Assembly: GCA_025462885.1 (NCBI GenBank)
Contig: JAOAPN010000006.1
Coordinates: 186,001 to 250,000, forward strand
Direction of reading: 5' to 3'
Length of the DNA stretch: 64,000 nt
Origin: Acidobacteriaceae bacterium
Lineage (GTDB): Bacteria > Acidobacteriota > Terriglobia > Terriglobales > Acidobacteriaceae
This document shows positions 18,358-60,931 of the stretch, in pieces. The notes below the pieces were generated by a model. The model was not told where the DNA came from and did no database searches. It saw only the letters and a program-made list of their open reading frames with translations. Made by a program: the position numbers and the translations under genes. Numbering within the stretch: position 1 is the first letter of the stretch; each line of letters starts with the position of its first letter.

Positions 18358-18451
18358 GGCCGGAATCCTAGCAGAGAAATGGTACGACCAGAAAGTGTTT
18401 CCGGTTTGGAACTTCGATCCATTGCTCCGGGGTATATCAACGCAATGAAAC

Positions 18452-18475
18452 GAGCCCTCTCCGTAGAGAGGGCTC
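18452..18475 (-). terminator. Terminator-like hairpin after bamD
   Basis: GAGCCCTCTC (18452-18461) pairs perfectly with GAGAGGGCTC (18466-18475) around a CGTA tetraloop, 31 bp past the bamD stop and before the GH28 start on the same strand. On the minus strand GTTTCATT follows, a weak T-tract. Confidence 0.65.
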
Positions 18476-18505
18476 TTCGCAACAACAACGTCAGTTCGAT
18501 TTCAT

Positions 18506-20263
18506 TTAGAAGGGGTTGATCTTGTTTAAACCCTTCTTCTTCTTGTGCTTGCTGGACGACTCTTCACCCTTATCGAACTCGGGCTTCTTGTTCTTTCCAT
18601 TCGCCGCCGGAGTCTGACCGGCAGGAGCAGCACCCGCCGGAATATCGTTCACCGCATCCGGAGCCGCGCCAACCTTCTCGACCGCTGGAAGCGGAGCCGA
18701 GTTCATAGGTCCAACCGCCTTCAGGCCGCCGGCGTCTGGCGTTGCCGCAGCAGCCGGAGCCGCAGACGACCCGTTCACGCCGGGGGTAAGAATCTCCACA
18801 CCAACCGAGTTGCCCCTCGCTCCGGAAGGAGCAGCAGGAGCTGCCGTCATCGTCGAAGCGCCGTTGCCGCTATCGCCCGCACCCGCAGCGGGAACCTCGT
18901 TCAACTGAAGAGGCGCCGCAGGACCCGCCGCCGCATCCGTCGCCGCAGCAGGAGTTCCGTCTGCTGCCGGAGCCGCAGCTGCTGCAGGCTGAACAGCGTT
19001 CGGATTCAGAGCGCCATTGAAGTCAGCAAGAATCTGCTTGTAGACCGTGGGAGCAAGCGTAGGCTTCGGGTCCGATAGCGTCGGCTCGCCCTTGGTCGCC
19101 GCCAGAACGGTGTCCGGTCTGTGCAGAATCAGCAGGCTCAAACGATCCTGCAACCGGTACGAGCGACGGCTGTTCTCGAGCGCAGCGCTCTCCGCCATCT
19201 GCTCCGGCGTCGGAGCAGGCATTGGGATGTTCATCGCCGCCAGCCGGTCGCGGGCATCCTCAACGTGCGACGAGGCAGCATGCTCCGTCACCACGCGACG
19301 ATACGCAGCAATTGCCTGATCGTCGTAGGTCTTTTCGAGCCGCGCTTTTCCGGCTTCAGGCAGCTTCAGAGTCCGGACGTAACGTGCCTCAGCCTCATAT
19401 GCATCGCCCAGTCCGACCAGTACGTCGTCCATATGGCTGTACTGCGGATAGCTGTCCACTACGGTCTGGTAGCGAGCAATCGTCGCCGGCCAGTTCGCAT
19501 GGGTCGAGTAGAAGGCTGCGATCTCGCTCTCGCGCACCGCCAGTACCTCCTGCACCTCGCGCAGACGCTGCTTCGCGTCCGGCACCAGCGTCGACTCCGG
19601 ATAATCCGTCAGCATGCGGCGATACTCTTCCTGTGCATGGACAGCCTTCGCGTAGTCGCGGTCCGGCTTGTCCATCTGGCGGAAGTAAATGTCTCCGATA
19701 CGCATCTGCGCTTCGGCAGCTTCCGGGGCATTCGGGAAGAAGACGCGGAAGTCGGCGTACTCCGCTTCAGCCTGCGTCAACGCTGCCGTGCCGCCTTCCT
19801 TGTACCAGCTATCGGCGATCGCCAGCTTGGCGCGCATCTGATACTGCGAGTCTGGATATGTATTCAGCAGAGTCTGGAGATCGAGGCGCGCTACGTCGTA
19901 ATGGCCCTTCTTCGTCTGCTCCGTCGCCTTGTCGTAGAGCTGTTTATCCGGCAGCTTCGAGTCCACGCCAATCAGCGGCTCGGCCTTGCGGGTCTTCTTC
20001 AGTTCGCGCTTGGTGTCCTTGGACTGGACGACCTTCTCTTCCTTCTCCTTGCGGGTCTTCTTGCCAGGGGACGCGCTCAACGTCACGGTCTCCTGCGGCC
20101 GACCCGTCGCGGGATCGGTCGAAGTCTGTGACGCGCCCGTAACCTGCGCTGCTGCGCCGACTGAAAGCCCAACCGTAAGCAAGGAAGCCATCAACAGGGC
20201 AGCAACGGAAACTCCGGCACGCCGGCCCGACTTCAAACTCGGAAAAAAAGAACGCTCATTCAT
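18506..20263 (-). CDS. bamD: Outer membrane assembly protein BamD (TPR) with long Ala/Pro tail
   Basis: 585 aa from ATG 20263 (an in-frame TTG precedes it). A signal-like segment (VSVAALLMASLLTVGLSVGA) is followed by a Lys-rich stretch. BamD-type tetratricopeptides run from about 100 to 350: ATEQTKKGHYDVARLDLQTL, NTYPDSQYQMRAKLAIADSW, FFPNAPEAAEAQMRIGDIYF and YPESTLVPDAKQRLREVQE. From about 420 the protein is low-complexity Ala/Pro/Gly and ends in KKKKGLNKINPF. No lipobox Cys is evident, unlike in proteobacterial BamD, so its membrane attachment may differ. It would work with BamA in barrel-protein insertion, needed for the TonB receptors. It is last in the tldD-pmbA-rpe run. Confidence 0.87.
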   Translation of the reverse strand: MNERSFFPSLKSGRRAGVSVAALLMASLLTVGLSVGAAAQVTGASQTSTDPATGRPQETVTLSASPGKKTRKEKEEKVVQSKDTKRELKKTRKAEPLIGVDSKLPDKQLYDKATEQTKKGHYDVARLDLQTLLNTYPDSQYQMRAKLAIADSWYKEGGTAALTQAEAEYADFRVFFPNAPEAAEAQMRIGDIYFRQMDKPDRDYAKAVHAQEEYRRMLTDYPESTLVPDAKQRLREVQEVLAVRESEIAAFYSTHANWPATIARYQTVVDSYPQYSHMDDVLVGLGDAYEAEARYVRTLKLPEAGKARLEKTYDDQAIAAYRRVVTEHAASSHVEDARDRLAAMNIPMPAPTPEQMAESAALENSRRSYRLQDRLSLLILHRPDTVLAATKGEPTLSDPKPTLAPTVYKQILADFNGALNPNAVQPAAAAAPAADGTPAAATDAAAGPAAPLQLNEVPAAGAGDSGNGASTMTAAPAAPSGARGNSVGVEILTPGVNGSSAAPAAAATPDAGGLKAVGPMNSAPLPAVEKVGAAPDAVNDIPAGAAPAGQTPAANGKNKKPEFDKGEESSSKHKKKKGLNKINPF

Positions 20264-48015: not shown

Positions 48016-50622
48016 TTAGAAGTTCAAAGTCACCTGCGCGCTCACCGTTCGGGGCGAAACAAAGTGCGTTCCGCTGAACGTTGAGAGGAAGTTATACAGC
48101 GCATATTTATTGGTGACATTCACCGCAGTCAGGCTCACATTCGTCTTGAAGCGATCACGATGCAGCACATTGTCCCAACCCGCGCCCATATCGAACAGCG
48201 TGCGTGGCGCAATCCGCGGAGGGTTCTTGTCGTCATTCTCCGTGCCGGGCTTGGGAATGCTCAGCAGCGGAGACGAGAGCTGCCCGACCGCGCAACTCTT
48301 CAGCGGAGCCGCCAAAGTTGCAACGACGCCACCGCAGGTAATCTGTGCCTGCGCCTGCTGATCGGCGGTCAGGTAGCTCAGGTCGGTGAAGCCCTGCGCC
48401 ACATCGTCCTTGGTTGCAAACGGCGCATTTCCAGCCACCAGTCCGCTCTCGTACCGGTACGTGATGCCGTACCACGGGCCACGCTTGAACGGCTGATACT
48501 GCACATGCGTCGACTGCTGAAACGCCTGATCGTGATCGATGCGGAACACGCCTTGGTCTCCGGTGCTCGGATCGTTGAACAGAATCCCGCCCACCTCCGG
48601 GTCGAAGAAGCGCGACCGCGTATGCCCGAGCACCGCGTACGCCGAAATCCCATGCGTCTGCGGAACCGTCAACTTAATCCCGAAGCCATCGATCTTCGAC
48701 TTCCGCCACTGGATCGGAAACGCCAGCGGAGTATTCAGCACAATGTCGAAGTCGAAGTCCCGGTCCGTGTACTTCCAGAAGTATTCGCCATTCACCACCA
48801 GGTGTTTGCCGAAGCCCTGCTCGAAGCCCGCGTCATACTGGTTGCGTGCCGCCGGCTTCAGCGGAGTCGGGAAGCCTGCACCCTCCAGGCCGCCTACACC
48901 CGTCGAACTCGAGACGATCAGATTCTCGTTATACGGCGTCAGGAACAGCTTGCCGTATCCGACCCGCAGCACCGTATTGGTCGCTTTCACCAGGTACGTC
49001 GCACCGAGCCGTGGCTGGATCAGCGAGCGGCTGCTCAGGCCGTTGTAGTTGTCGATGCGTCCGCCCAACAGGAAGGTGAATCCCTTGAACGCCAGGTTGT
49101 CCTGGATGTAGATGGCTTCCTGCTTGATGTCCGTCTTGCCGTTGAAATGGTAGAGGCTTCCGCCGCGCGAGAGGTCGAATCCAGCGGACCCGGGATTGAA
49201 GCTTTCGTTCACCGTATCCTGCTCCGGGCACTGGCTTGGATCGCGGTAGCTGGTGTTCGTGTCGGGGGTGCCGTCCGCGTTCAGGCAAGGCGCATTGAAG
49301 CCCGGATCGGTAATGCCCAGCGAGAACCCTTCGTGCAGGAACGTGTGGTAAAACATCGCTCCGACCTTCAGCGTATTGATACCGCGCGAGTACGAATAGT
49401 CCACCTTGATGCCGGCGTTCTGCAGGCGGCGCGACTGGGCCAGCGTTGCCGGCGTATCGCTGAACGGATTCTTGCTCGGGTAGTAGTGGAAGTTGTCCTG
49501 CCGCAGGTAAGGGTTCACCGTAAACAGGCTGTGCGCGCTGATAATGTGCGTCCACGAAGGCGATAGATTGTAGCTGAAGATCTGCGCCTTCTGGTCCTGC
49601 CCCGCCGCCTGCTGGTCGTACTGGTTCGGGTTCTGGAACCACGACCGCGAAGCCGTCATGTTCAGTTGCAGCATGTCCTTCGCGCTCGGATTGAAGTCGA
49701 TCCGGTCGAAGAAGTTTTCGTTGTTGCCCTTCGCATGGAGCGGCCGAAACTCCGGCGTATCGAGATAGCGCCCGCTGTTCACGCCATCCGCAGTAAAGAA
49801 GTTCCCGAACCGCTTATCGCCGAATCCCAGCGCCACGCTTCCTACTGAAGTCCCGAACGATCCATAGTTGAAGGAGATGCTCCCGGTGGGATGCGTCAGG
49901 TTCAACCCTGAGCGCGTCGTCGTCTGCACCACCAGCGAAGCCTTGTCGCCGTACTCCGGCGGAGCGATACCGTTGATCACGTTGATCGACTGGATCGCAT
50001 TCAGCGAAAGCTGGTTGCCGAACACCCGGCTCTGCTGGTCGCTCACCGGCTGTCCGTCGATGCTGAAGCTCGTATCCGCGTGTTCGCCCATGGGATGGAA
50101 CAGCCCGTTCGAGTCGCCCGCAATGCCCGGCGTGCTGCCCGAGACCAGCGAACTCAGTGGAGCGTTCGTGCTCTCTGTCGGCAGCCGCGAGAACAGGTTG
50201 CGGTCCACGGCATTGCCCGAGGTAGGATCGGCGTTCACCATGTCCTCCGGCTCCGATTCGACATTGACGACCTCATCGCCGCCGCCCACGGAAAGCTTAA
50301 AGTCGAGCACCGTCGCCGACGCCGAACGCAACTGCGCATCTCCGGTCGTCGAGCGGAATCCCTTTGCCGTCACCGCGACGTGATACCGGCCAAACGGCAG
50401 ATTCGTAACGCGGTACTGCCCCTGGTTATCGGTCTTCGTGGTTTGCGAGTACCCACTCACAGGATTTGAGACGGATACCACCACGTCCGGAACGATGGCC
50501 CCGGTGCTGTCTTGTACGGTTCCCGCAATCGAGCCGGATGTGCCCTGCGCGTTAAGTCGAACCAGTGCAAATAGAAATAGAAAAGTCGAAAGTGCGAATG
50601 GGAGGAAGCGAGGCCTCTGCAT
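48016..50622 (-). CDS. TonB-dependent receptor with CarboxypepD-regulatory domain
   Basis: 868 aa from ATG 50622, with AGGAG 6 nt upstream; 24 residues upstream in the frame are rejected. Signal peptide (FALSTFLFLFALVRLNAQG), regulatory beta-sandwich (GSIAGTVQDSTGAIVPDVVV, DNQGQYRVTNLPFGRYHVAV), plug (SIDGQPVSDQQSRVFGNQLS, INVINGIAPPEYGDKASLVV) and barrel ending TVSAQVTLNF. It differs from the receptor at 1942-5298 and is shorter. A Fur-like inverted repeat sits 52 bp upstream, and the next upstream gene is a DUF2946-like protein often seen near metal receptors, so metal or siderophore uptake is a reasonable guess. Confidence 0.93.
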   Translation of the reverse strand: MQRPRFLPFALSTFLFLFALVRLNAQGTSGSIAGTVQDSTGAIVPDVVVSVSNPVSGYSQTTKTDNQGQYRVTNLPFGRYHVAVTAKGFRSTTGDAQLRSASATVLDFKLSVGGGDEVVNVESEPEDMVNADPTSGNAVDRNLFSRLPTESTNAPLSSLVSGSTPGIAGDSNGLFHPMGEHADTSFSIDGQPVSDQQSRVFGNQLSLNAIQSINVINGIAPPEYGDKASLVVQTTTRSGLNLTHPTGSISFNYGSFGTSVGSVALGFGDKRFGNFFTADGVNSGRYLDTPEFRPLHAKGNNENFFDRIDFNPSAKDMLQLNMTASRSWFQNPNQYDQQAAGQDQKAQIFSYNLSPSWTHIISAHSLFTVNPYLRQDNFHYYPSKNPFSDTPATLAQSRRLQNAGIKVDYSYSRGINTLKVGAMFYHTFLHEGFSLGITDPGFNAPCLNADGTPDTNTSYRDPSQCPEQDTVNESFNPGSAGFDLSRGGSLYHFNGKTDIKQEAIYIQDNLAFKGFTFLLGGRIDNYNGLSSRSLIQPRLGATYLVKATNTVLRVGYGKLFLTPYNENLIVSSSTGVGGLEGAGFPTPLKPAARNQYDAGFEQGFGKHLVVNGEYFWKYTDRDFDFDIVLNTPLAFPIQWRKSKIDGFGIKLTVPQTHGISAYAVLGHTRSRFFDPEVGGILFNDPSTGDQGVFRIDHDQAFQQSTHVQYQPFKRGPWYGITYRYESGLVAGNAPFATKDDVAQGFTDLSYLTADQQAQAQITCGGVVATLAAPLKSCAVGQLSSPLLSIPKPGTENDDKNPPRIAPRTLFDMGAGWDNVLHRDRFKTNVSLTAVNVTNKYALYNFLSTFSGTHFVSPRTVSAQVTLNF

Positions 50623-50673
50623 GAAAAACTCCTGTCGGGCTGGAAGAGCACGGTCGAGGGATAGAAAGACCAA

Positions 50674-50689
50674 GAGAATTTTGATTCTC
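50674..50689. promoter_or_regulatory. Fur-like inverted repeat upstream of the TonB receptor
   Basis: GAGAAT-TTTG-ATTCTC is a perfect 6-bp inverted repeat, and with flanks reads TGAGAATCAAAATTCTCT on the minus strand. It resembles TGAGAAT/ATTCTCA Fur-type half-sites, though the spacer is longer than usual. It lies 52 bp before the receptor ATG at 50622, where a repressor would act. Confidence 0.4.
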
Positions 50690-50768
50690 AGCATTTAATC
50701 CGCTCGGAAAGACAGGGAAGAGAAGTTCGCGGGGATCCCGGAAAATACGTCCTTACACCTGCCGTCAG

Positions 50769-51143
50769 CTATGCCTGGGGAGACACAGCAGGCGGAGGCC
50801 GGCTGAACAGCTCGTAGTTCCAACGCTGAACACGCTCAACCTGGACCGCCTGCAGCAGAACCGTCTGGACTTGCAATACCGGTTCAGGGGACGTATGGGC
50901 CGTAGCCGGCAGAGCCGAATGCATCGCCACGCAGAGCGGGCAATGGTCTGGAACCGTCTGCCTGGAGTCACGCGAATCCTGCGATCCGCTTCCAGCCAGT
51001 TCGCCATGAACGTGGCAAACCTGCACCGTGCTCGCTACCGAAAGCAGCAGCAGACACAGCAGCGCCAGCATCCGCAACCATCCCGGCCGCTGTGGGCCAG
51101 CCTGGTGCTTCTGCCTGCTTCCGGATTGGAATATGGTCAGCAT
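50769..51143 (-). CDS. DUF2946-like Cys/His membrane-anchored protein
   Basis: 124 aa. One hydrophobic segment (MLALLCLLLLSVASTV, about 25-42) is followed by CHVHGELAG and DHCPLCVAMHSALPATAHTS, a Cys/His pattern typical of DUF2946-like proteins that accompany copper- or metal-related TonB receptors. The C-terminus (RWNYELFSRPPPAVSPQA) is Pro-rich and probably periplasmic. It lies upstream of the TonB receptor on the same strand (gap 146 bp, with the Fur-like site between). A metal-handling role is inferred from motif and context. Confidence 0.65.
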   Translation of the reverse strand: MLTIFQSGSRQKHQAGPQRPGWLRMLALLCLLLLSVASTVQVCHVHGELAGSGSQDSRDSRQTVPDHCPLCVAMHSALPATAHTSPEPVLQVQTVLLQAVQVERVQRWNYELFSRPPPAVSPQA

Positions 51144-51302
51144 CGCTTCAAGGCTACTCTTACCTGTTTAGCACATCCAGCGTCATGAAACCAAAAAAAG
51201 CCGAAGCAGTGCAAGAACTTTACTGCTGCTCGTTGCCCTCCAGGGATGAGCGGAGCGCTACAGCGTGATTTCTGCTCAGAATGAGTAGCGTGCCTAGCGT
51301 AG

Positions 51303-51377
51303 TTTTATGTTTTTTATCTGTTGGTGGGTGGTGGGTGGTGGGTTGCGGTGATTTGGCTGGGTTTTGGGGGTTGACAG
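51303..51377 (+). repeat. Family 3 repeat with heptads, left copy
   Basis: Blocks in order are TTTTATGTTTTTTAT, four heptads (TGTTGGT, GGGTGGT, GGGTGGT, GGGTTGC at 51319-51346), GGTGATTT and GTTTTGGGGGTTGACAG. The reverse complement of 60252-60317 matches it with one heptad fewer. The region 51144-51437 has no other gene. It also contains three GGG runs that could form a quadruplex. Confidence 0.75.
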
Positions 51378-51437
51378 GTTTGAGATCGCGGATTGTTGGT
51401 CGCGCCTAACATCTACTCCGTTTTATCGAGCGGACCG

Positions 51438-51662
51438 TTACTTTTCCTTTGCAAGGGTGGTAATGAAGACCACCCCCAAAAGGATGAATGAACACAGAGA
51501 TAGGTAGGTTCCGCCCGCTAGAAGCGACGTTACGGAGTCCTGCGACTGTCCCCAACGCGTTTCTTCATGGACAGAGCAACCGAAGCAGAACATTATTGCG
51601 CTTGCTAGTGAAGCAATACAAAATACGCCGATGCGTGTAGATAACTTTGTTGATTTCCGCAT
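51438..51662 (-). CDS. Possible small two-helix membrane protein
   Basis: 74 aa: MRKSTKLSTRIGVFCIASLA, then CFGCSVHEETRWGQSQDSVT, then LLAGGTYLSLCSFILLGVVF and a basic end. Two hydrophobic helices flank a polar loop. It is more AT-rich than its neighbours and has no good SD, so it may be an acquired or decaying gene. No family is recognised. Confidence 0.4.
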   Translation of the reverse strand: MRKSTKLSTRIGVFCIASLASAIMFCFGCSVHEETRWGQSQDSVTSLLAGGTYLSLCSFILLGVVFITTLAKEK

Positions 51663-51745
51663 GTCAGCGATACTCGCAGGCCGCTAAGTGAGACGCAAGC
51701 AGTTTCAAAAAGGGGGTGGCTTCTCCAGTTGTTCAACTTTACGGA

Positions 51746-51759
51746 TGAATGATCATTCA
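51746..51759. promoter_or_regulatory. Perfect TetR-type palindrome
   Basis: TGAATGATCATTCA is a perfect 14-bp palindrome in the 301-bp gap 51663-51963. This half-site arrangement is typical of TetR/AcrR operators. The nearest downstream gene on plus is the 94-aa membrane protein (start 51964). A related palindrome is at 7678-7691. Nothing else in the gap looks coding. Confidence 0.4.
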
Positions 51760-51963
51760 GTTATGCTTTCGACTCGTAGACGGAGCGGTATTCCGGCTGC
51801 GGTTATGGCTTTGGTTTTGCTGTAGTTTTGGGCTGTGATTTAATGGGGGGTGTTGCGATTGCCCGGATGGGTGTCGCGATGGGCTTCACGACCATCATCA
51901 AATCGAATTCTCAAGACGATCACGCAGCGAGCCGAGACAGGCCGCAGGAGACGAAAGAACGTA

Positions 51964-52248
51964 ATGGCAAACTTACTGCTTTCCCCCGAAGAACGGAACC
52001 TTACCCCCGACGAGGTTGAGCTGCTGGATAAGCGGCGTCGGCGTGGCCAGTTGTTCCTGGTGGTCTGCTTCCAATGCATCATCGTCTCGGCGTTGCTGTC
52101 GCTTTGGACCGGCCAGGACCTGACGTATTCGCCGGGCTGGATGCATCCGGTGGCGTACTGGAACGGAATCACGCTTCTGGCAGCAATCGTGTTTGGCATT
52201 GCCGGAGTTCGTCTGCGGAGCGGAAGCAACGAGTTCATCAGCTACTAG
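51964..52248 (+). CDS. Small two-helix membrane protein
   Basis: 94 aa from ATG 51964; AGGAGA lies upstream with long spacing. A polar N-terminus (ANLLLSPEERNLTPDEVELL) with basic DKRRRR precedes helix 1 (QLFLVVCFQCIIVSALLSLW), a loop with PGWMHPVAYWNG, and helix 2 (ITLLAAIVFGIAGVRL). It precedes the EMO-etfBA operon by 100 bp, so an association with that respiratory module is possible. No known family. Confidence 0.65.
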   Translation: MANLLLSPEERNLTPDEVELLDKRRRRGQLFLVVCFQCIIVSALLSLWTGQDLTYSPGWMHPVAYWNGITLLAAIVFGIAGVRLRSGSNEFISY

Positions 52249-52348
52249 TTCCCTGCAAGAGCTAGTTCCATCGATGAGCCGACCTTCCGGTGTGTGCTGC
52301 ATGGTGCGAGCGTGCGCTGCTTGAGGCGCTGCCCGCGGATGGGTTCGG

Positions 52349-54340
52349 ATGCTGGATGTTTCGGTTGTTGCTTCGGCGGCGATGGGGATGGCTGCCCGCC
52401 CGGGTACTTTGGCGGTCTTCACGGGGCTTCACCTCTCAGGGACGCTGGCTGAGCCGGCGGGATTTACAGGGATCGAGATTGGGCTGCTGGTGGCATGCGT
52501 TCTAGCCTCCGGCGGCCTTTTCTTCTGGCGCTTCGCGCCGATCCTGCGGAATATCTTCCGCTCCAAAAAAGATAATGACTTTACGCTGCACCCGCTGGGG
52601 CGGAGGGTGTGGGACTTCTTCTGGGAGGTGCTGTGCCAGGCGAAGGTGATCCGGCAGCGGCCTCTGCCGGGGATCGCGCACGCGTTCGTGTTCTGGGGAT
52701 TTCTGGCGTTTGCGCTGGTGAGTCTGAATCACTTCGCGAACGGGATGCGACTGGGGTTTCTGGCGCCGGACGGCTCCGTCGGACGGTTCTACTTTGGGTT
52801 TGCGGCGGTGTGGGCGCTGCTGGTGGCGGTGTCGATTGCGGGACTCTTTGTGCGACGCTTCTTCGTGCGGCCGATCTGGCTGGGGACGAAGGTCTCGTAT
52901 GAGTCGGGGTTTATTGCTTTCCTGATCTTCACCTTGATGGTTACCTATCTCGCTGCGTTTTTTGTAGAGGACGGCGGCGCTGCCGTGAAATCCCTGTGGT
53001 GGACCCATACGCTGGCCCTGCTGATGTTTCTGCCGCTGATTCCGCACACCAAGCATCTGCATCTCGTCCTCAGTCCGCTGACGGTGTTTTTGAAGCGGGA
53101 TGGATTTTCGAAGATTCCTCCCCTCAGTGGCGATGAAGACTTCGGGCTGGTGGCCGGGAAAGATATTACGCAACTGATTTCGTTACAGGCTTACAGTTGC
53201 GTGGAGTGCGGACGATGTACGGAGCACTGCCCTGCCTCTATAACGGGCAAAGTGCTGAATCCAAAGGAAATTATTCTCGGGATGCGTTCTTACCTGAACG
53301 AGCTTGGACCTGCCAGCGAGGTGGCGCTGCTGGCGGAGGCACGGCCGGAGACGACGTTCGGGACCACGATGTCGATGGAGGCTGCGTTCGAGTGCACGAC
53401 CTGTGGAAGCTGCGAGTACCAGTGCCCGGTGGGAATTCAGCATGTCCCGATTCTTGTCGGGCTGCGGCGCGGCGCGACGAACACGGGGGCGTGGGAGGAC
53501 ACCTATGGGACGAAGCTCTTCCTGGCGCTTGAGAAGAACGGCAATGCGCTGGGGCTGAGTTCGAGTGAGCGGGATAAATTTGTAACCAAAACTGGTCTTC
53601 CGATCTTCGATGGCACACAGGAGTATTGCCTGTGGTTGGGATGCATGGGTGGATATGACCCAAAGGGGCGGGAGATTATCGCCGATTTCGCGCGGGTAAT
53701 GGACTACCTCGGCACTACGTTTGGCGTGCTGAAGAAAGAGAAGTGTACGGGCGATCCGGCGCGGCGGTTGGGGAACGACCTGGTATTCCAGACGATGGCG
53801 GAGTTTGGGCTGAAGGCGCTGGAGACGGCTAAGGTGCAGAAGATCGTGGCGATCTGTCCGCATTGCGTGCGGACGATCTCGAACGACTGGCGCGAGTATG
53901 GGATCGCTCCGGAGATTGAGCACCACTCGGAGTTTATGGCGCGGCATAAGGATCGTCTGCCGAAGCAGCAATCGGACGAGAGCATCGTCTATCACGACCC
54001 ATGCTACCTGGGGCGGTATCGCGATGTGTATGAGGAACCCCGGGAGATTGTCGCGCTGGCGGGCACGCTTGTTGAAGCTCCGCGATCGCGTGAGAAGAGC
54101 TTTTGCTGTGGTGCTGGGGGTGGGCTTGCGTTCCTGGGTGAGGAGACGGGGGAGCGCGTGAGTCATGTGCGCGCAGCGGAGCTTGCAGGGACGGGGGCGC
54201 AGGTGGTGGGCACGGCTTGTCCGTTCTGCAATACGATGTTTCGGGATGCTTTGAGTGAGATGGAGACGAAACCGCAGTTACTGGATATTGCGCAATTGAC
54301 AGCGAGAGCGATAACCACAGTTGGTAGTGGTGCGTTGTGA
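52349..54340 (+). CDS. ETF:menaquinone oxidoreductase-like membrane iron-sulfur protein (EMO/HdrD-like)
   Basis: 663 aa. The first 240 residues have about six hydrophobic helices with His residues (AHAFVFWGFLAFALVSLNHF, WWTHTLALLMFLPLIPHTKH) suited to heme b. Two [4Fe-4S] ferredoxin clusters follow (CVECGRCTEHCPAS, CTTCGSCEYQCPVG), then two CCG domains (CLWLGCMGGYDPKG, DPCYLGRY, CCGAGGG, GTACPFCNTM). etfB and etfA come next, 25 bp away. This is the organisation of ETF:menaquinone oxidoreductases that pass electrons from acyl-CoA dehydrogenases through ETF to menaquinone. Its last codons are written in heptad repeats (54319-54350). Confidence 0.88.
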   Translation: MLDVSVVASAAMGMAARPGTLAVFTGLHLSGTLAEPAGFTGIEIGLLVACVLASGGLFFWRFAPILRNIFRSKKDNDFTLHPLGRRVWDFFWEVLCQAKVIRQRPLPGIAHAFVFWGFLAFALVSLNHFANGMRLGFLAPDGSVGRFYFGFAAVWALLVAVSIAGLFVRRFFVRPIWLGTKVSYESGFIAFLIFTLMVTYLAAFFVEDGGAAVKSLWWTHTLALLMFLPLIPHTKHLHLVLSPLTVFLKRDGFSKIPPLSGDEDFGLVAGKDITQLISLQAYSCVECGRCTEHCPASITGKVLNPKEIILGMRSYLNELGPASEVALLAEARPETTFGTTMSMEAAFECTTCGSCEYQCPVGIQHVPILVGLRRGATNTGAWEDTYGTKLFLALEKNGNALGLSSSERDKFVTKTGLPIFDGTQEYCLWLGCMGGYDPKGREIIADFARVMDYLGTTFGVLKKEKCTGDPARRLGNDLVFQTMAEFGLKALETAKVQKIVAICPHCVRTISNDWREYGIAPEIEHHSEFMARHKDRLPKQQSDESIVYHDPCYLGRYRDVYEEPREIVALAGTLVEAPRSREKSFCCGAGGGLAFLGEETGERVSHVRAAELAGTGAQVVGTACPFCNTMFRDALSEMETKPQLLDIAQLTARAITTVGSGAL

Positions 54341-54350
54341 GTGGTGAGTT
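54319..54350 (+). repeat. Degenerate heptad repeat across the EMO stop codon
   Basis: AGTTGGT, AGTGGTG, CGTTGTG, AGTGGTG, AGTTTTT form a 7-base period, beginning inside the C-terminus of the EMO gene and running past the TGA at 54338-54340. The opening CAGTTGGTAGTGGTG closely matches CAGTTGGTAGTTGTG at 58616. Confidence 0.5.
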
Positions 54351-54365
54351 TTTCTGGGGAGACTT

Positions 54366-55127
54366 ATGAAGATCTTGGTGGCGGTGAAGCAGGTGCCGGA
54401 GCGGGACGCGCAGATTCATGTGGCCGCGGATGGTAAGTGGATCGATGAGGATGATCTTTCGTACACGATCAATGAGCCAGACGCGTACGCGCTGGAAGAG
54501 GCGTTGCAGTTGAAGGAGAAGAATGGGGGCGAAGTGGTCGTCGTGTGCGCGGGACCGGAGCGGGTGACCAGTACGCTGCGCGAGGCGCTGGCGAAGGGGG
54601 CGGACCGGGCGATTCATATTGAGGCGGATGATCTGGGGGAGCGGGATACGCTCGGCGTTGCACGGATGCTGGCGGAGGCGGTCAAGGGCGAGTCGCCGGA
54701 TTTGATCCTTACAGGGTTACAATCTGACGATCTTGGGCTGGGACAGACGGGTGTGGTGCTAGCGGAGCTGCTCGGGATTCCGCACGCAACCATTATTATG
54801 CAAGTCGAAAAGACCGACTTGGGTCTACGAGTGAAGCGCGAGCTGGAGGATGGCTGGTTCCAGCATGTGGAGATGCCGTTTCCGGCGCTGCTGACGATCC
54901 AGAGTGGCGGCAACAAGCTGCGCTATGCGACGTTGATGGGAATCAAGAAGGCGAAGACCAAGGAGACGGCTACGTTCTCTGCGAGTGCGGCGGGGGCGAA
55001 GGCGGTATCGCTTGAAAAGGTGTATCTGCCGGAGAAGCAGAAGCGGACAGAAATGTTAACGGGAACGCCTGCGGAGATTGCGGCGAAGCTGGTGGAGAAG
55101 CTGAAGTTCGATGTGAGGGTGCTATGA
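54366..55127 (+). CDS. etfB: Electron transfer flavoprotein beta subunit
   Basis: 253 aa, with GGGGAGA before the ATG. The family start MKILVAVKQVPERDAQIHV is present, then YTINEPDAYALEEALQLKEK, VVVVCAGPERVTSTLREALA, LILTGLQSDDLGLGQTGVVL and MPFPALLTIQSGGNKLRYAT. It binds AMP/FAD at the interface with EtfA. The etfA start overlaps its stop by 4 nt (ATGA), so the subunits are translationally coupled. Confidence 0.96.
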   Translation: MKILVAVKQVPERDAQIHVAADGKWIDEDDLSYTINEPDAYALEEALQLKEKNGGEVVVVCAGPERVTSTLREALAKGADRAIHIEADDLGERDTLGVARMLAEAVKGESPDLILTGLQSDDLGLGQTGVVLAELLGIPHATIIMQVEKTDLGLRVKRELEDGWFQHVEMPFPALLTIQSGGNKLRYATLMGIKKAKTKETATFSASAAGAKAVSLEKVYLPEKQKRTEMLTGTPAEIAAKLVEKLKFDVRVL

Positions 55128-56092
55128 GCGGAGTCTTGGTGGTGTTGGAGCAGCGCGAGGGGGAGTTGAACCGCATGAGCCTGGAGGCTGTTGCGGCCGG
55201 GCATTTGCTGGCGGCGAAGGTCGGCGGGGAGTGCTCGGCGGCGATGCTTTCGAGTGGCGGCGGATTGAAGGTGGGCGGGGTGGCGAAGCTTTACTCCGTC
55301 GAGCACGAGCTGCTGAAGGACTACACGGCGGATGGATATTGCGCGGTGCTGGAGCAGCTGGTGAAGAAGCTGGAGCCGGGCTATGTGCTGTTTCCGCATA
55401 CATACCAGGTGCGGGATTTTGCGCCGGCGTTGGCGACGCGGTTTGGGCAGGTACTGATCAGCGATGTGGTGGCGATGCACGATGGCGATGTGGGGCCGGT
55501 GTTTGTGCGGCAGCTTTTGCAGGGCAAGCTGAATGCGGATTATCGACAGACAGCGAGCGGGCCTTGTTTTGTTTCCGTACAGGCGGGGAGCTTCCGGGCC
55601 GAGGGTGAGGGCTCGGGGGCAGAAGCTGCGGTGGATGTGTTTGTGCCGGAGCTGAAGCCGGAACAGATTCGGAGCAAGCCGGGGGAGCCGTTCCGGGAGT
55701 CGGCGCAGACGGTGGATTTGAGTGTGGCACCGGTGATCGTGTCGGTCGGCCGGGGGATCGGCGAGGAGGGCAATATCGCGATGATGCAGGAACTGGCAGA
55801 CGCGCTGGGAGCGGAGCTGGCGGCGAGCCGTCCGATCTGCGATAACGGCTGGCTGCCGATGGAGCGGCAGGTCGGAAGCTCGGGGCAGACAGTTTCCCCG
55901 AAGCTATACCTGGCAGTCGGAATCTCAGGCGCGATTCAACACCTGGTGGGAATGAAGGGTTCAAAGGCGGTGATTGCGATCAACAAGGATGAGCATGCAC
56001 CGATCTTCGAGGTGGCGGATTTCGGGGTAGTGGGGGATTTGTTCGAGATCGTTCCGGAGCTCACGAAGGCGGTTCTGGCAGCAAAAGGCTGA
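55124..56092 (+). CDS. etfA: Electron transfer flavoprotein alpha subunit
   Basis: 322 aa. FAD-domain motifs near the C-terminus: ADALGAELAASRPICDNGWL, RQVGSSGQTVSPKLYLAVGI, SGAIQHLVGMKGSKAVIAIN and DEHAPIFEVADFGVVGDLFE. The middle holds PVIVSVGRGIGEEGNIAMMQ. It pairs with EtfB and delivers electrons to the EMO-like protein encoded first in the operon. Acyl-CoA dehydrogenase genes would lie elsewhere. Confidence 0.96.
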   Translation: MSGVLVVLEQREGELNRMSLEAVAAGHLLAAKVGGECSAAMLSSGGGLKVGGVAKLYSVEHELLKDYTADGYCAVLEQLVKKLEPGYVLFPHTYQVRDFAPALATRFGQVLISDVVAMHDGDVGPVFVRQLLQGKLNADYRQTASGPCFVSVQAGSFRAEGEGSGAEAAVDVFVPELKPEQIRSKPGEPFRESAQTVDLSVAPVIVSVGRGIGEEGNIAMMQELADALGAELAASRPICDNGWLPMERQVGSSGQTVSPKLYLAVGISGAIQHLVGMKGSKAVIAINKDEHAPIFEVADFGVVGDLFEIVPELTKAVLAAKG

Positions 56093-56172
56093 TGAGGTTG
56101 GACCTATTTTGGCAGGCAGCAGGCTGACGCAGAGAGCCCGACGGGTCTAATGTATTAAGAGGAATGGGCATG

Positions 56173-56198
56173 CCGGCGTGTCTCAGGAGACACGCCGG
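56173..56198. terminator. Perfect palindrome between etfA and moaA
   Basis: CCGGCGTGTCTC (56173-56184) pairs with GAGACACGCCGG (56187-56198), separated by AG. It may be the etfA terminator or an operator or leader element of moaA; there is no T-tract. It does not resemble the Moco riboswitch consensus as far as I can judge. Confidence 0.5.
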
Positions 56199-56270
56199 GA
56201 TCGGCTCGTTCTGAATTATCGGTTCGGATTATGAATCACTGCATCTGAAAGAAGCGACCGTGGGAGTTTT

Positions 56271-57401
56271 GTGACAACGATGCCTTTAGTGATCATCGGC
56301 GGGGCTGACGTTCTGGACAGCGACGAAGGCCTGGAGGTCCAAGAGCGGCTTGAGCTCGGGGAACCAGAGCTGGGGCGGCTGCGGGATAAATTCGGCCGCG
56401 CAATTACGGATCTGCGGGTTTCGGTGACGGACCGATGTAACTACAAGTGCGTCTATTGCCGGACGGGCAATGAAGGGGCGCAGTACGCGGAGCTTCCGAT
56501 TGCGGATTATCTGCGCATGGTTCGGATTTTCGTATCGCTGGGCGTGGAGAAGATTCGGCTGACCGGGGGTGAACCGCTGCTGCGAGCGGGCCTGGTGGAG
56601 ATGGTGGAGGAGTTGTCCAGGATGCGGACTTCGTATCTTCCGGACGGGACCGCGGTGGGTGCAGGCGAAGCTGGTTTGCCTCTGGATATTGCTCTGACGA
56701 CGAACGGACATCTGCTTGAGGGTCTGGCGGAGCCGCTGAAGCGGGCGGGGCTGAACCGGGTGACCGTCAGCATGGATGCGGTGGATGCAGAGACGTTCAC
56801 GGCGATAACGCGGGTTCCGCGAAGCTATGACAAGGTTCTGGCTGGGATTCGTAAGGCGCGCGACGCTGGGCTTGGACCGGTGAAGGTGAATTGCGTTCTG
56901 CTGCGCGGGTTCAATGATTCGCAGATCGAACAGTTTGCGGAATTCTCGCGTCGAGAGCGAGTCATTGTTCGATTTATCGAGTTTATGCCTCTTGAGGAAG
57001 ATCGCACGTGGAAGCCGGAGACCGTCGTACCGCTGGACGAGATCGTGGGACGACTGAATGCTTACCGGCCGCTGGTGGAACTGGCTCCGAACGTCGCGAG
57101 CGAGACGGCGAAGCGCTACACGTTCGACGATGGGGTGGGAGAGATCGGGATCATCGCGCCGGTGTCGCGGCCATTCTGCGGACACTGCAGCCGGGTGCGA
57201 CTGACCTCCGATGGAAAGATACGGACTTGCCTTTTCTCGCAGAGCGATCACGATCTGCAAGGCGAGATGGTTCGGGGTGGAACGGATTCCGAACTTGCAA
57301 CGTATATCCGTCGAGTGGTGATGCGGAAAGAGGCTCGCCATCACATTGGTGAACCTGGGTTCGAAAAGCCTTCGCGGAGCATGGTCCACATCGGGGGCTG
57401 A
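56271..57401 (+). CDS. moaA: GTP 3',8-cyclase MoaA
   Basis: 376 aa with a GTG start at 56271. Radical-SAM enzyme of the first molybdenum-cofactor step. The first cluster is in VTDRCNYKCVYCRTG (CxxxCxxC), SAM-binding GGEPLLR follows, and the second cluster is in PFCGHCSRVRLTSDGKIRTC. The C-terminus ends HIGG, the conserved GG motif. The N-terminal 45 residues before FGRAITDLRVSVTDRC are longer than in most MoaA. Other moa/moe genes are absent here. Confidence 0.95.
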   Translation: MTTMPLVIIGGADVLDSDEGLEVQERLELGEPELGRLRDKFGRAITDLRVSVTDRCNYKCVYCRTGNEGAQYAELPIADYLRMVRIFVSLGVEKIRLTGGEPLLRAGLVEMVEELSRMRTSYLPDGTAVGAGEAGLPLDIALTTNGHLLEGLAEPLKRAGLNRVTVSMDAVDAETFTAITRVPRSYDKVLAGIRKARDAGLGPVKVNCVLLRGFNDSQIEQFAEFSRRERVIVRFIEFMPLEEDRTWKPETVVPLDEIVGRLNAYRPLVELAPNVASETAKRYTFDDGVGEIGIIAPVSRPFCGHCSRVRLTSDGKIRTCLFSQSDHDLQGEMVRGGTDSELATYIRRVVMRKEARHHIGEPGFEKPSRSMVHIGG

Positions 57402-57518
57402 CGTTTCGGCTGCCGATAGAGGATTGACCGCTGCGATGGATGACATGAAATACCGTTTTAGACCTTGGATCGTTTTGAGACGTCCCTGCTATACCTGCAT
57501 AATTTTTCCGGTGAACGA

Positions 57519-58607
57519 GTGAAAGAGCGGCGCCAGTTCGAAGTCATTGAGAGTCGGCAGATGGATCACCTTCGGGTGTTCCACGATGTAGCGCGTGCGC
57601 TGACGTCGATGCTTGAGCTGGAGGAGATCCTCGGCGCGATCATGGAAAAGATGGCCCAGTTCTTCGGGCCGGAGCGATGGTCTCTGCTGATGGTGGATGA
57701 AGCGGAGGACGATCTCTACTACGCGATTGCGGTGGGCGAGAACGCGGAGACGCTGAAGGGTCTGCGCGTGAAGATGGGCGAGGGCGTTGCCGGGTGGGTG
57801 GCGAAGACGGGCAATCCGCTGGTGGTGCCGGACGTTTCGCTGGATCCGCACTGGCTGGCGTTCTCGAGGCGCTTTCCGGATTTGAATATCCAGTCGATTG
57901 CGTGCGTGCCGATCCGGTCCGGGAACAAGACGCTCGGAGTGATCCAGTTGCTGAACAGCAAGCTGGACCTGATGTCGGAGTACTCCATCTCGTTTTTGCG
58001 GATTTTGTGCGATTACGCGGCGATCGCGATTCAGAACGCGCGCTCGATGACGCTGATTCACGAACTGACGATTACGGATGACGTGACGGGTCTCTTCAAC
58101 GCCCGGCATCTGTACACCATGCTGGACGAGCAGGTGAAGATCAAGCAGGACTTTACGCTGCTGTTTGTGGATCTCGACCACTTCAAGGCGGTCAACGACA
58201 CGCATGGGCACCTCGTAGGCAGCCGGCTGCTGGCCGAGGTGGGAAGCCTGATGAAGCGGTCGCTGGGTCCGGATTGCGCGGCGTTCCGGTATGGCGGCGA
58301 TGAGTTCGTGGCGTTGATGCCCGGGATGCGGAAGTCCAAGGGCGTGGAGACATCGATGAAGCTGCGGGACGATCTGCGGGAAGCGCGTTTTCTGGAAGGT
58401 GCGGGACTTTCGCTGAAGATCTCGGGTAGTTTTGGGATGGCGACGTTTCCCGAGGACGGCAACACCGTGCCAACGATTCTGCGGGCAGCCGACACCATGA
58501 TGTACGAGGCGAAGAATACGACCCGCGATAACGTCGCCGTCGCAGGCCGAGGCCTGATGCTGGAGATGGACCGGGCTGGTGGGGCGTTTCGGGTGGGGCG
58601 GAAATAA
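57519..58607 (+). CDS. GAF-GGDEF diguanylate cyclase
   Basis: About 362 aa, choosing the GTG at 57519; TTG at 57465 and ATG at 57561 are alternatives in frame. The GAF domain (about 20-180) has LKMGEGVAGWVAKTGNPLV-like strands and SIACVPIRSGNKTLGVIQLL. The GGDEF domain (about 195-350) has DDVTGLFNARHLYTMLDEQ, LFVDLDHFKAVNDTHGH and the catalytic YGGDEF. The RxxD inhibitory site five residues upstream is not visible (RSLGPD instead). It probably makes c-di-GMP under control of a small ligand. Orphan. Confidence 0.9.
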   Translation: MKERRQFEVIESRQMDHLRVFHDVARALTSMLELEEILGAIMEKMAQFFGPERWSLLMVDEAEDDLYYAIAVGENAETLKGLRVKMGEGVAGWVAKTGNPLVVPDVSLDPHWLAFSRRFPDLNIQSIACVPIRSGNKTLGVIQLLNSKLDLMSEYSISFLRILCDYAAIAIQNARSMTLIHELTITDDVTGLFNARHLYTMLDEQVKIKQDFTLLFVDLDHFKAVNDTHGHLVGSRLLAEVGSLMKRSLGPDCAAFRYGGDEFVALMPGMRKSKGVETSMKLRDDLREARFLEGAGLSLKISGSFGMATFPEDGNTVPTILRAADTMMYEAKNTTRDNVAVAGRGLMLEMDRAGGAFRVGRK

Positions 58608-58616
58608 AAGAAAGAC

Positions 58617-58644
58617 AGTTGGTAGTTGTGAGTTGATAGCAGGT
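58617..58644 (+). repeat. Degenerate heptad repeat after the GGDEF gene
   Basis: AGTTGGT, AGTTGTG, AGTTGAT, AGCAGGT occur in register at 58617-58644, ten bases past the GGDEF stop. The same heptad style is at 51319, 54319 and (inverted) 60283. Confidence 0.5.
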
Positions 58645-58699
58645 CGGGCGATTTCAGTTTCTGGCGTATTAATAAAATTCAGGGTGCTGGAGGGCGTGC

Positions 58700-58909
58700 A
58701 TGGCGAAACAGAGAGGTTATCCCGATCGTCGCGGCATGGGCGCGCAAAGCGACTTCATCGCCGAGCAGTTCATTCCGAGTGAAAAGTACAAAGCGGAGCA
58801 GATGGCGAGGGTGAGGAAGCTGCTCGCTGCAGGTGTGCATCCTGAAGCGGTCGCGCAGATGTTTTCGATTCCCTTCGATCTGCTTGCCGGTGAAAAGATC
58901 GAACCGTAA
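58700..58909 (+). CDS. Conserved 69-aa protein
   Basis: 69 aa with a strong GGAGGG 5 nt before the ATG. Basic N-terminus (MAKQRGYPDRRGMGAQSDFI), then AEQFIPSEKYKAEQMARVRK and a helical end with AAGVHPEAVAQMFSIPFDLL, which looks like a small helix-turn-helix or packing motif. Soluble. No family recognised; function unknown. Confidence 0.7.
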   Translation: MAKQRGYPDRRGMGAQSDFIAEQFIPSEKYKAEQMARVRKLLAAGVHPEAVAQMFSIPFDLLAGEKIEP

Positions 58910-58968
58910 AACGCATGCATTCAAATGAGGCTTAAGTGACTCACCCGAACTCTGAAAGAATCGGCCAA

Positions 58969-60021
58969 TCAGTTGGGGCGGCGGCGTTCGAGGGTGACTG
59001 GGCGGCGGGGTTGGGGTTTTAGGGCGTCGCGGTTTTCTGGAGCGATGGGGTGGACTCCGAAGTCCCAGACGCCGAGATTGACCTCCTTGTCGGAGATGAC
59101 CTCCATGAGGGCGTACTCTCCGAAGTCGAGGGGCTGCTTCGGGGTGATCTTCATCCAGTGATTGCCGGGGAGCAGTTCGGTGGTGGTCTCGACTACGTCC
59201 TCCTGGCGGCGGACGCCTCCCAGCATGTTGATTTTGAAGCTGGTCAGCAGCCGGGCTCCGACTCGGACGTCGGCCCGGACGATGACGTAGCGGCTGTCGG
59301 GAGAGCCACCGGCAGGGGCGGTTGGGGCCTGGGCGTTGGAGCCGTGGGTGTCTACGGTAAGCGGTGTGCCTCCGGTTGGGGGTGGAGCGGAGTCGCCTAC
59401 GCGGAGATACAGGACTGGGGTATCGACGTGAAGCTGGATGAAGGAGCGCTCGCCCTTGAGCTGGACGACCTGATGCGAACTGGAGAGCGGGTTGATGGTG
59501 GCGCGAAGAATGTTATGCGCCGTGTTGCGGTTGAGGTCGCCGGAGGATTGGGGCAGCGGAACAAGCTCCGGGGTACCGTGGAAGGTATCGAGGGCCAGAA
59601 CGCTGTCCTCCTGGGGAAGACGGAGGTCGGGCGCGACCTCGGGGGTGAGAGAGGCACGGTCGGCCTCTTCCTTCAGAAGTTCGGGGTCGAGCGTAGGGGC
59701 GGGTGCCTGTCCGTCTGCGGTGGCGGTGCGGCGGGCCTCCCACTTGCGGGTGGCGTCGAGATCGACGAGGGACGCGGGAATCTCTTCTTCCGCTCCTCCG
59801 CGCTCCGCTGAGATGTAGTGGACGATGTTGCCGGTGACGCGATAGCTCATGACGATCTGGTAGCTGCCGTCCTTGAGGATGAGGCGGGTGCGGTGCGAGG
59901 TGGAAGGCGCGTCCGCCGTGACCAGCGGCTTCTGTTGCTGGGCGAGCATTGGGGGAAGAATCCCGCCAAGGGTGAGGGCTGCCGTGAGTAAGAATTGCGG
60001 GAGAGCAAACGTTGTTCGCAT
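58969..60021 (-). CDS. Exported protein of unknown function
   Basis: 350 aa with a signal peptide (LPQFLLTAALTLGGILPPML, cleavage near AQQQ). Sections include HRTRLILKDGSYQIVMSYRV, EEEIPASLVDLDATRKWEAR, and a beta-rich C-terminal half with ELLPGNHWMKITPKQPLDFG, EYALMEVISDKEVNLGVWDF. The Pro/Thr/Gly-rich middle (about 215-250) is a linker. Such two-part secreted proteins are common in acidobacteria without known role. It is on the minus strand yet G-rich on plus, in line with the GC-skew block it lies in. Confidence 0.75.
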   Translation of the reverse strand: MRTTFALPQFLLTAALTLGGILPPMLAQQQKPLVTADAPSTSHRTRLILKDGSYQIVMSYRVTGNIVHYISAERGGAEEEIPASLVDLDATRKWEARRTATADGQAPAPTLDPELLKEEADRASLTPEVAPDLRLPQEDSVLALDTFHGTPELVPLPQSSGDLNRNTAHNILRATINPLSSSHQVVQLKGERSFIQLHVDTPVLYLRVGDSAPPPTGGTPLTVDTHGSNAQAPTAPAGGSPDSRYVIVRADVRVGARLLTSFKINMLGGVRRQEDVVETTTELLPGNHWMKITPKQPLDFGEYALMEVISDKEVNLGVWDFGVHPIAPENRDALKPQPRRPVTLERRRPN

Positions 60022-60251
60022 GGGCTTCGTCTTATTTGTATAGCTGATCCAGGGCGTATCGACCTATTCCGCCTTGGCGATTGGTTGATACGCTTGGGAG
60101 TTGAGGTTTGACGTATTGGACAATCTGTTAGCGCGGGCCTTTCAGCCCGCAATTGCTTGACTGTTCCTGACTGCAGTACTCAGCCATTTTTCCTTTAACC
60201 AACTTCAGACTCAGGATACGAGCAGGCCTCGCGCTAAACGACCATCCAGTG
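60022..60251. other. Gene-free stretch with a GCGGGC hairpin
   Basis: No credible ORF. GCGGGC (60133-60138) and GCCCGC (60145-60150) form a small hairpin like the GGGC/GCCC one at 10957. With the family 3 repeat, the terminator hairpin and a nine-G run (60511-60519), the whole gap to 60533 is non-coding and unusually AT-rich. Confidence 0.5.
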
Positions 60252-60317
60252 CTGTCAAGCCCCAAAACACAGATAAATTACCGCAACTCACCACCCATCA
60301 ACACATAAAAAATATAA
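60252..60317 (-). repeat. Family 3 repeat with heptads, right copy (inverted)
   Basis: The reverse complement reads TATATTTTTTATG, three heptads (TGTTGAT, GGGTGGT, GAGTTGC at 60303-60283), GGTAATTT and GTTTTGGGGCTTGACAG. It matches 51303-51377 apart from a few substitutions and one missing heptad, in inverted orientation. Confidence 0.75.
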
Positions 60318-60375
60318 AAAAATGGCACTTTAGTTATGGCAAAACTCCTAAAATAGAAACAGCGAACAAAAAGTC

Positions 60376-60399
60376 AGGCCCGGCTACCCAGCCGGGCCT
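60376..60399 (-). terminator. Intrinsic terminator after the zinc-ribbon gene
   Basis: AGGCCCGGCT (60376-60385) pairs perfectly with AGCCGGGCCT (60390-60399) around ACCC. On the minus strand it is followed by GACTTTTTG, so it would end the transcript of the gene at 60534-60806, 134 bp downstream of its stop. Confidence 0.7.
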
Positions 60400-60533
60400 A
60401 ACTCGTTCTGGCAGAGGAATTTAGCAGTAACCCCTTTGTTTAGACGATTTTAGCGACATCGATGCGTGTAAGTCATTCTAAAAAAAAGACTTACGCCAAG
60501 GTAACCCCCAGGGGGGGGGACCCTCCTGGATCT

Positions 60534-60806
60534 CTAAATAAAAGCCACTGACTGAATACCAGCGACATCGAATCGCTTCCGGCAGCGGATATTCTTGCAC
60601 CCCACCAGGTCATCCCGCCGCACCATGTAGCTCTGTGCCTTGGCGAATCGTGCCCGGTCCCGGTCGTCGGCTCCACGCGGCAGTTGGGTCTTTTTACGCC
60701 GCACCAGCCAGCTCAGTTCGTACTCGCCCTGCTGGCCGCAGTGCGGACAGGTCATCACATGCGTACGCTGCTCCGGCCGCTCATCAAAAAAATCACGCTC
60801 TTCCAT
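60534..60806 (-). CDS. Small zinc-ribbon protein
   Basis: 90 aa from ATG 60806, with GAGGTG upstream; the ORF upstream of that is not supported. MEERDFFDERPEQRTHVMTC is followed by PHCGQQGEYELSWLVRRKKT; a later CKNIRCRKRFD supplies the second Cys pair of the ribbon. The middle is strongly basic (RADDRDRARFAKAQSYMVRR-like). It probably binds zinc and perhaps nucleic acid. No known family. Confidence 0.7.
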   Translation of the reverse strand: MEERDFFDERPEQRTHVMTCPHCGQQGEYELSWLVRRKKTQLPRGADDRDRARFAKAQSYMVRRDDLVGCKNIRCRKRFDVAGIQSVAFI

Positions 60807-60931
60807 CCGGCACCTCGTTGCACCGTGCTGGCCCATTTTGGTGCCTAACATCCACGGTGACGCACTTGCGAAGACGAGTATATTGCATAATCACCTTGGG
60901 CTTCGGCTCCAGCAAGGTCGCAGAGACGTTT

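Follow-up and report, generated by a model that had tools for sequence, protein, structure and literature searches.

An inverted 9-kb block and a dispersed element at GC-skew steps in a Granulicella-like acidobacterium

What turns the strand composition of a bacterial chromosome round twice within about 9 kb? The question arises from the window analysed here, a stretch of 64,000 nucleotides (bases 186,001–250,000 of the 318,923-base contig C8) from the genome of a Granulicella-like acidobacterium (G000; 5.26 Mb, 16 contigs). Bacterial GC skew is commonly taken to record replication between a single origin and a single terminus, and its local reversals to mark inversions. A preliminary description of the window had proposed a 9-kb inversion driven by recombination between two inverted repeats of roughly 70 bp. 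We find that the block at ~51.7–60.0 kb was inverted in the lineage of the window, and that the spacers at both of its ends hold copies of one dispersed element. Elsewhere in G000, copies of this element, always in one polarity, mark places where skew steps upward and then fades over ~30 kb downstream.

Gene order was compared with that of 80 related loci; the named records that match best come from Granulicella and further Acidobacteriaceae. The argument turns on the following features, in window coordinates:

50769–51143, minus strand: left flanking gene, DUF2946 (PF11162) by Pfam, which adjoins gene 58969 in relatives.
51081–51735, no strand: left breakpoint spacer; DNA matching relatives stops at ~51,080 and restarts at 51,736, with the skew switch at 51,243.
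51304–51381, plus strand: R1, a right half of the element (model positions 53–123 of 126; E 2.4e-6 in C8).
51736–60020, no strand: the inverted block, from gene order against the 80 loci and Pfam.
59939–60530, no strand: right breakpoint spacer; DNA matching relatives stops at ~59,938 and restarts at 60,531, with the skew switch at 60,138.
60248–60553, minus strand: R2, a full-length copy of the element (E 5.1e-75 with a 338-position model that includes R2 itself).
60534–60851, minus strand: right flanking gene, without a Pfam match, which adjoins gene 51964 in relatives.

Every locus holding both 60534 and 51964 has them adjacent and co-oriented (29/29), and every locus holding both 58969 and 50769 has these adjacent (8/8), while the joins of the window itself were found in 0/80. 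In two relatives (L036 and L037), DNA matching window 60,531–60,533 lies only ~50 bp from that matching 51,736–51,737. The joins of the relatives are uniform, so the order in the window is the derived one, and the synteny comparison bears out the proposed inversion: relatives carry the block in the opposite orientation. Both breakpoints fall in spacers of ~0.6 kb with one repeat copy in each. Between them lie a small gene (51964) and, with Pfam as evidence, an Fe-S oxidoreductase (52349), ETF beta (54366) and ETF alpha (55124), a MoaA-like radical SAM protein (56271) and a GAF-GGDEF protein (57465), followed by the unnamed 58969. A mobile element with terminal inverted repeats was considered for the block and rejected, as these are metabolic and signalling genes that relatives keep in order. 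Part of this region has been rearranged separately in the Granulicella sp. strain dw_53 (genome G035, locus L038), where 46832, 48016, 50769, 58969 and 57519 follow 55124 in reversed order, from 13699 to the end of the locus.

Strand composition changes at the same two places. In 1-kb bins, the GC skew of the plus strand was +0.21 to +0.37 at 1–18 kb, mostly negative at 19–49 kb, 0 to +0.04 at 49–51 kb, +0.09 to +0.33 at 51–60 kb and negative beyond 60 kb. Local two-segment likelihood fits placed the switches at 18,412 (support 18,345–18,531; gain 133 log units), 51,243 (51,200–51,299; 84) and 60,138 (60,106–60,166; 84). The switches that the preliminary description had placed from hand counts are thus real, at ~18.4, 51.2 and 60.1 kb; its C-rich stretch was drawn too far to the right, since skew at 48–51 kb is near zero.

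The same description had the skew hold for genes on both strands, and codon third positions agree in the block and its flanks, shifting at both ends. Third-position skew on the plus strand was +0.07 to +0.59 for the genes of the block, including the minus-strand gene 58969, and −0.06 to −0.57 for genes on either strand at 39.9–50.5 kb. The three genes at 60.9–62.7 kb gave −0.31 to −0.41, and the next gene, 63034, gave −0.03. Third-position skew in L036 and L037 has the same sign all the way across the block and its flanks, whereas the window shows a flip at each end. The same stretch in other species is positive throughout in five loci (L035, L036, L037, L050 and L070), negative throughout in three (L039, L043 and L048) and mixed near zero in three more (L041, L044 and L046).

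The inverted repeats at the two ends exist much as described: 51310–51377 and 60252–60319 are 68 nt long and 78% complementary (R1/R2 identity, 76–78%). The right-hand copy is part of the longer element at 60248–60553, and the two sequences are too short and too diverged for ordinary homologous recombination, with no exact inverted match longer than 9 bp between the spacers. The inversion that had been proposed thus has its inverted copies in both spacers, and recombination between them is a putative cause. R1 and R2 may have been more alike when the inversion happened; among 190 pairs of family copies, 20 resemble each other as closely as these two or more so.

Inverted repeats at both ends would also suit a phase-variable invertible segment, to which we attach almost no credence. 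A fast-flipping switch is unlikely because frequent flipping would average out the skew, and the block retains strong values, up to +0.59. Pfam found no recombinase among the 10 proteins in or next to the block, and both the 9-bp exact match and the 0/80 loci with the joins of the window speak against it. An assembly error that turned the block round would likewise flip the skew, but it is very improbable because the spacers share at most 9 exact bases, hardly enough to confuse an assembler, and the block is far from either end of its 319-kb contig.

The element to which R1 and R2 belong is intergenic and roughly 300–330 bp long (~310 bp), with at least 35 copies in G000: 29 with an exact 14-base core and six, R1 and R2 included, with a variant core or only a half. 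R2, which overlaps the final 20 bases of gene 60534, was aligned with 14 further G000 copies. Along the element come a C-run and a G-run, units with TAA.TC and GTTACGG arms, a T-run hairpin (in some copies), TTCTATTTTA and AACTAAARTGCCAC, an AT-rich stretch and a G-rich end with TTGACA. The G-rich end of R1 faces into the block. The element-model search did not detect a left half of R1, which has an expanded GGTGGGT run (window 51325–51345) missing from the other displayed copies. The 15 aligned copies gave 0 consensus pairs in a consensus RNA fold, and Rfam, including a scan of the window, gave no match to the element. Sub-threshold Acido-Lenti-1 (RF01687) matches lie outside it, ~85–120 bp downstream, at two of six loci searched (L003 and L010). 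Next to R2, at 60050–60160 (plus strand), is what appears by eye to be a second dispersed repeat, with similar stretches beside other elements.

Across 61 genomes, the exact core occurred 29 times in G000, 57 times in G035 and 10 times in G018, and 0 or 1 times in each of the other 58, which is the level of a reversed control pattern. R2-like sequence was found in 12 of the 61 genomes (its own included, no more than 12 candidates being scored in each), all of one genus. A first model, which covered just the right half, turned up no clear copy among the 80 loci, and a two-core pattern applied to relatives proved too strict, giving three matches, all in G000. Longer models matched five copies in named loci: one in L043, two in L038 and one each in L079 and L090. 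With a model built from G000 and G035, L038:9071–9207 is a left-half copy (E 4.6e-10) that stands beside the orthologue of 60534 in dw_53, at the ancestral junction, and L043:16598–16943 is a diverged full copy (E 3.5e-10); the G000-only model gave E 3.1e-4 and 2.1e-5 for these two. A scan of viral contigs with one 20-base pattern and a search of plasmids gave no element match.

We then oriented 23 G000 copies by their own sequence and measured the skew beside them. The 20 copies outside C8 had been chosen before their skew was known. The first 5 kb downstream was G-rich in 22/23, the exception being R2, whose downstream side is the inverted block. The mean profile of all 23 copies, R1 and R2 included, ran upstream from ~+0.07 at −30 kb through ~0 at −14 to −7 kb to +0.147 in the final kilobase, and downstream from +0.208 in the first kilobase, through ~+0.2 as far as +17 kb, to +0.06 at +30 kb. 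When R1 and R2, which the inversion has disturbed, were omitted, skew stepped upward in 19/21, 20/21 and 21/21 copies with flanks of 2, 5 and 10 kb. Intergenic control positions (n = 700, 650 and 566) had a mean step of −0.014 to −0.010, and 0 of 20,000 control draws reached the observed mean step at any of the three flank lengths. With 3-kb flanks the step peaked at the element (+0.115, upward in 20/21) and was +0.036 at 1.5 kb downstream.

Gene direction was considered as a cause of the skew and rejected: genes on both strands change, and the flanking gene arrangements are mixed (7, 6, 5 and 5 of the 23). From the last 5 kb upstream to the first 5 kb downstream, third-position skew in co-oriented genes rose from +0.10 to +0.42, and opposed genes showed a rise as well, from +0.30 to +0.55. 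The excess of T over A also increases downstream of the elements. A switch of sign was likewise discarded as the usual pattern, being found only at R1 and R2 (2/23; 5-kb flanks, set threshold). The mean upstream skew, at 0 to +0.15, lacks the opposite sign expected of a replication origin, while the upward step expected of one was seen with 10-kb flanks at all 21 undisturbed G000 copies of the sample and was not localized in G035.

These counts bear on a reading in which skew comes only from replication from oriC, the chromosome is a mosaic of many plain inversions and rearrangement is helped by the elements as passive repeats. Skew along C8 does alternate in sign in blocks of ~10–60 kb, the gene junction at the 18.4-kb switch was not found in relatives and dw_53 has its further rearrangement in this region. 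Such a mosaic nevertheless predicts as many downward as upward steps, which the uniformly upward steps of the 21 copies with 10-kb flanks contradict, and gene order is preserved across both element sites that we compared with relatives; we regard it as improbable.

At those two sites, G000 could be set beside two relatives (G010 and G012) in which no match to R2 was recognizable. The genes flanking the copy at C2:109710 are adjacent in both relatives, and their third-position values on the two sides of the site were +0.15/+0.54 in G000, +0.22/+0.27 in G010 and −0.02/+0.21 in G012, a smaller rise in the relatives; gene strands normally differ, and this accounts for some of any such rise. At the C10:173283 copy, G010 has the same gene order and its skew falls along the same direction, and in G012 it is flat. 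At the two sites compared, then, relatives without a recognizable copy keep the gene order and lack the step.

A second species, dw_53, repeats part of the pattern. From its 57 exact-core copies, 41 were sampled, in 40 stretches, and 40 were usable; downstream skew was positive in 39/40 and exceeded upstream skew in 30/40, with the rise spread across ~10 kb. The co-orientation is thus replicated in G035 and the sharp, localized step is not. Downstream skew was positive for four of the five matches in named loci. Of the four copies where a step could be judged (all but that in L079), two have an upward one, the L043 copy and L038:2587–2967 (from −0.24 to −0.02 at the latter).

Several observations weigh against an element that itself sets the local skew. 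In G035, the step did not differ significantly from controls in the same stretches (2557 of 20,000 draws with 3-kb and 2841 with 5-kb flanks; P ~0.13). Among the named loci, skew falls at the L090 copy and shows no step within the kilobase nearest to the L038 junction copy, and the element was recognized in neither L036 nor L037 (22-kb loci), though skew there is strong and uniform. In G000, downstream skew is almost nil at the copy C4:287081, and a point 1.5 kb upstream gives a step (+0.100) close to that at the element, the rise beginning ~6 kb upstream; a plain start site offers no explanation for a rise that begins there and ends at the element. The 23 copies examined come from at least 35, with 12 outside the sample (three on C4, C6 and C16, and nine recognized later by the core search). 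In the window, whole-window segmentation (breaks at 18,409, 48,993, 53,316 and 60,136) blurs the left edge of the block into an intermediate piece, 48,993–53,314, with a skew of +0.07.

The most serious rival is insertion of the element at existing changes. Elements that insert into single-stranded DNA at replication forks are co-oriented with replication, and the element described here may insert with fixed polarity where strand exposure already changes, for instance at a fork restart site, without being the cause of the skew. The early start of the rise fits this, as does the second species, in which co-orientation recurs without the sharp step. Yet the G000 step peaks at the element itself, and at the two sites compared the relatives with no recognizable copy lack the step; we think insertion at pre-existing changes rather unlikely.

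We favour, as the probable account, a combination of the block inversion with element-linked skew, in which the block is the flipped domain of R2 and a one-directional process may lie behind the skew. Before the inversion, R2 would have adjoined gene 60534 and pointed toward the block's 51964 end, a placement we infer because the corresponding position in dw_53 carries a left-half copy. R2's downstream domain would then have been made up of the block and the adjoining DNA, to ~25–30 kb of the window, and would have been C-rich on the plus strand, with the strong skew seen just downstream of other elements. A break or exchange at or within the element may have flipped the first 9 kb and left R1, the right half, at the opposite end, the block keeping its old skew, now reversed. 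An inversion of R2's domain would leave R2 alone with downstream skew of the wrong sign and place the local change-points beside R1 and R2.

Least certain is what the element does. A one-directional process may begin at it, or end there, and by exposing one of the DNA strands bias mutation to G over C and T over A across tens of kilobases; on the downstream strand, such a bias is expected when that strand is exposed as a single strand. Candidate processes include unidirectional auxiliary replication, single-strand DNA transfer, very long transcription and a polar stop for an agent moving in the opposite direction. That the elements are dispersed polar sites of an unrecognized strand-exposing process, which runs ~30 kb repeatedly and leaves a sawtooth skew in a bacterium bearing dnaA, we put forward tentatively, as a possible though less likely reading. 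The dnaA gene of G000 lies at C6:144341–145729, far over the family cut-off.

In earlier work (PMC6220195; critique, PMC9098844), inversions are seen as local GC-skew reversals and skew is taken as the trace of single-origin replication. The block resembles such skew-marked inversions in its reversed third-position skew and its reversed gene order against relatives, and departs from them in that a dispersed element, one in each breakpoint spacer, predicts the local skew. Yeast replication origins are reported to show skew jumps (PMC3459929), and some cyanobacteria combine irregular skew with multi-origin replication and loss of the dnaA gene (PMC7198777). As there, upward steps occur at many sites of one chromosome; here, however, upstream skew either lies close to zero or shares the downstream sign, a one-directional pattern, and the presence of dnaA means that loss of the gene is not the reason.

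REP and ERIC sequences are dispersed intergenic repeats, and they too occur as dozens of short copies that vary between species. Unlike them, the element gave no consensus fold in its 15 copies and has fixed polarity and skew steps, the latter not being known from REP or ERIC families. A literature search, judged by titles and the openings of abstracts and with subscription journals mostly outside its reach, recognized no comparable skew-linked element. The inversion by itself is ordinary, unlike the element-linked skew. In G000, a dispersed noncoding element predicts the place, direction and rough reach of skew steps. If the proposed link is true, a site-specific, one-directional process acts over tens of kilobases, and skew blocks in such genomes should be taken as inversions only with caution. 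The 9-kb block would be a natural experiment in this respect, a stretch on the element's side that was reversed and retained its old composition.

One further feature of the window lies outside the block:

18345–18531, no strand: third skew switch, a separate junction between genes 16633 and 18506.

Skew drops sharply there, from +0.28 to −0.10. Gene 18506 was beside 16633 in 0/25 relative loci, which show at most ~1.5 kb beside the gene and in some cases end at contig ends, and a profile search of C8 detected no family element at 18345–18531; this switch is an event separate from the 51–60 kb block. Elsewhere on C8, skew switches upward near 144–147 kb, with a very weak element match nearby (E 1.4).

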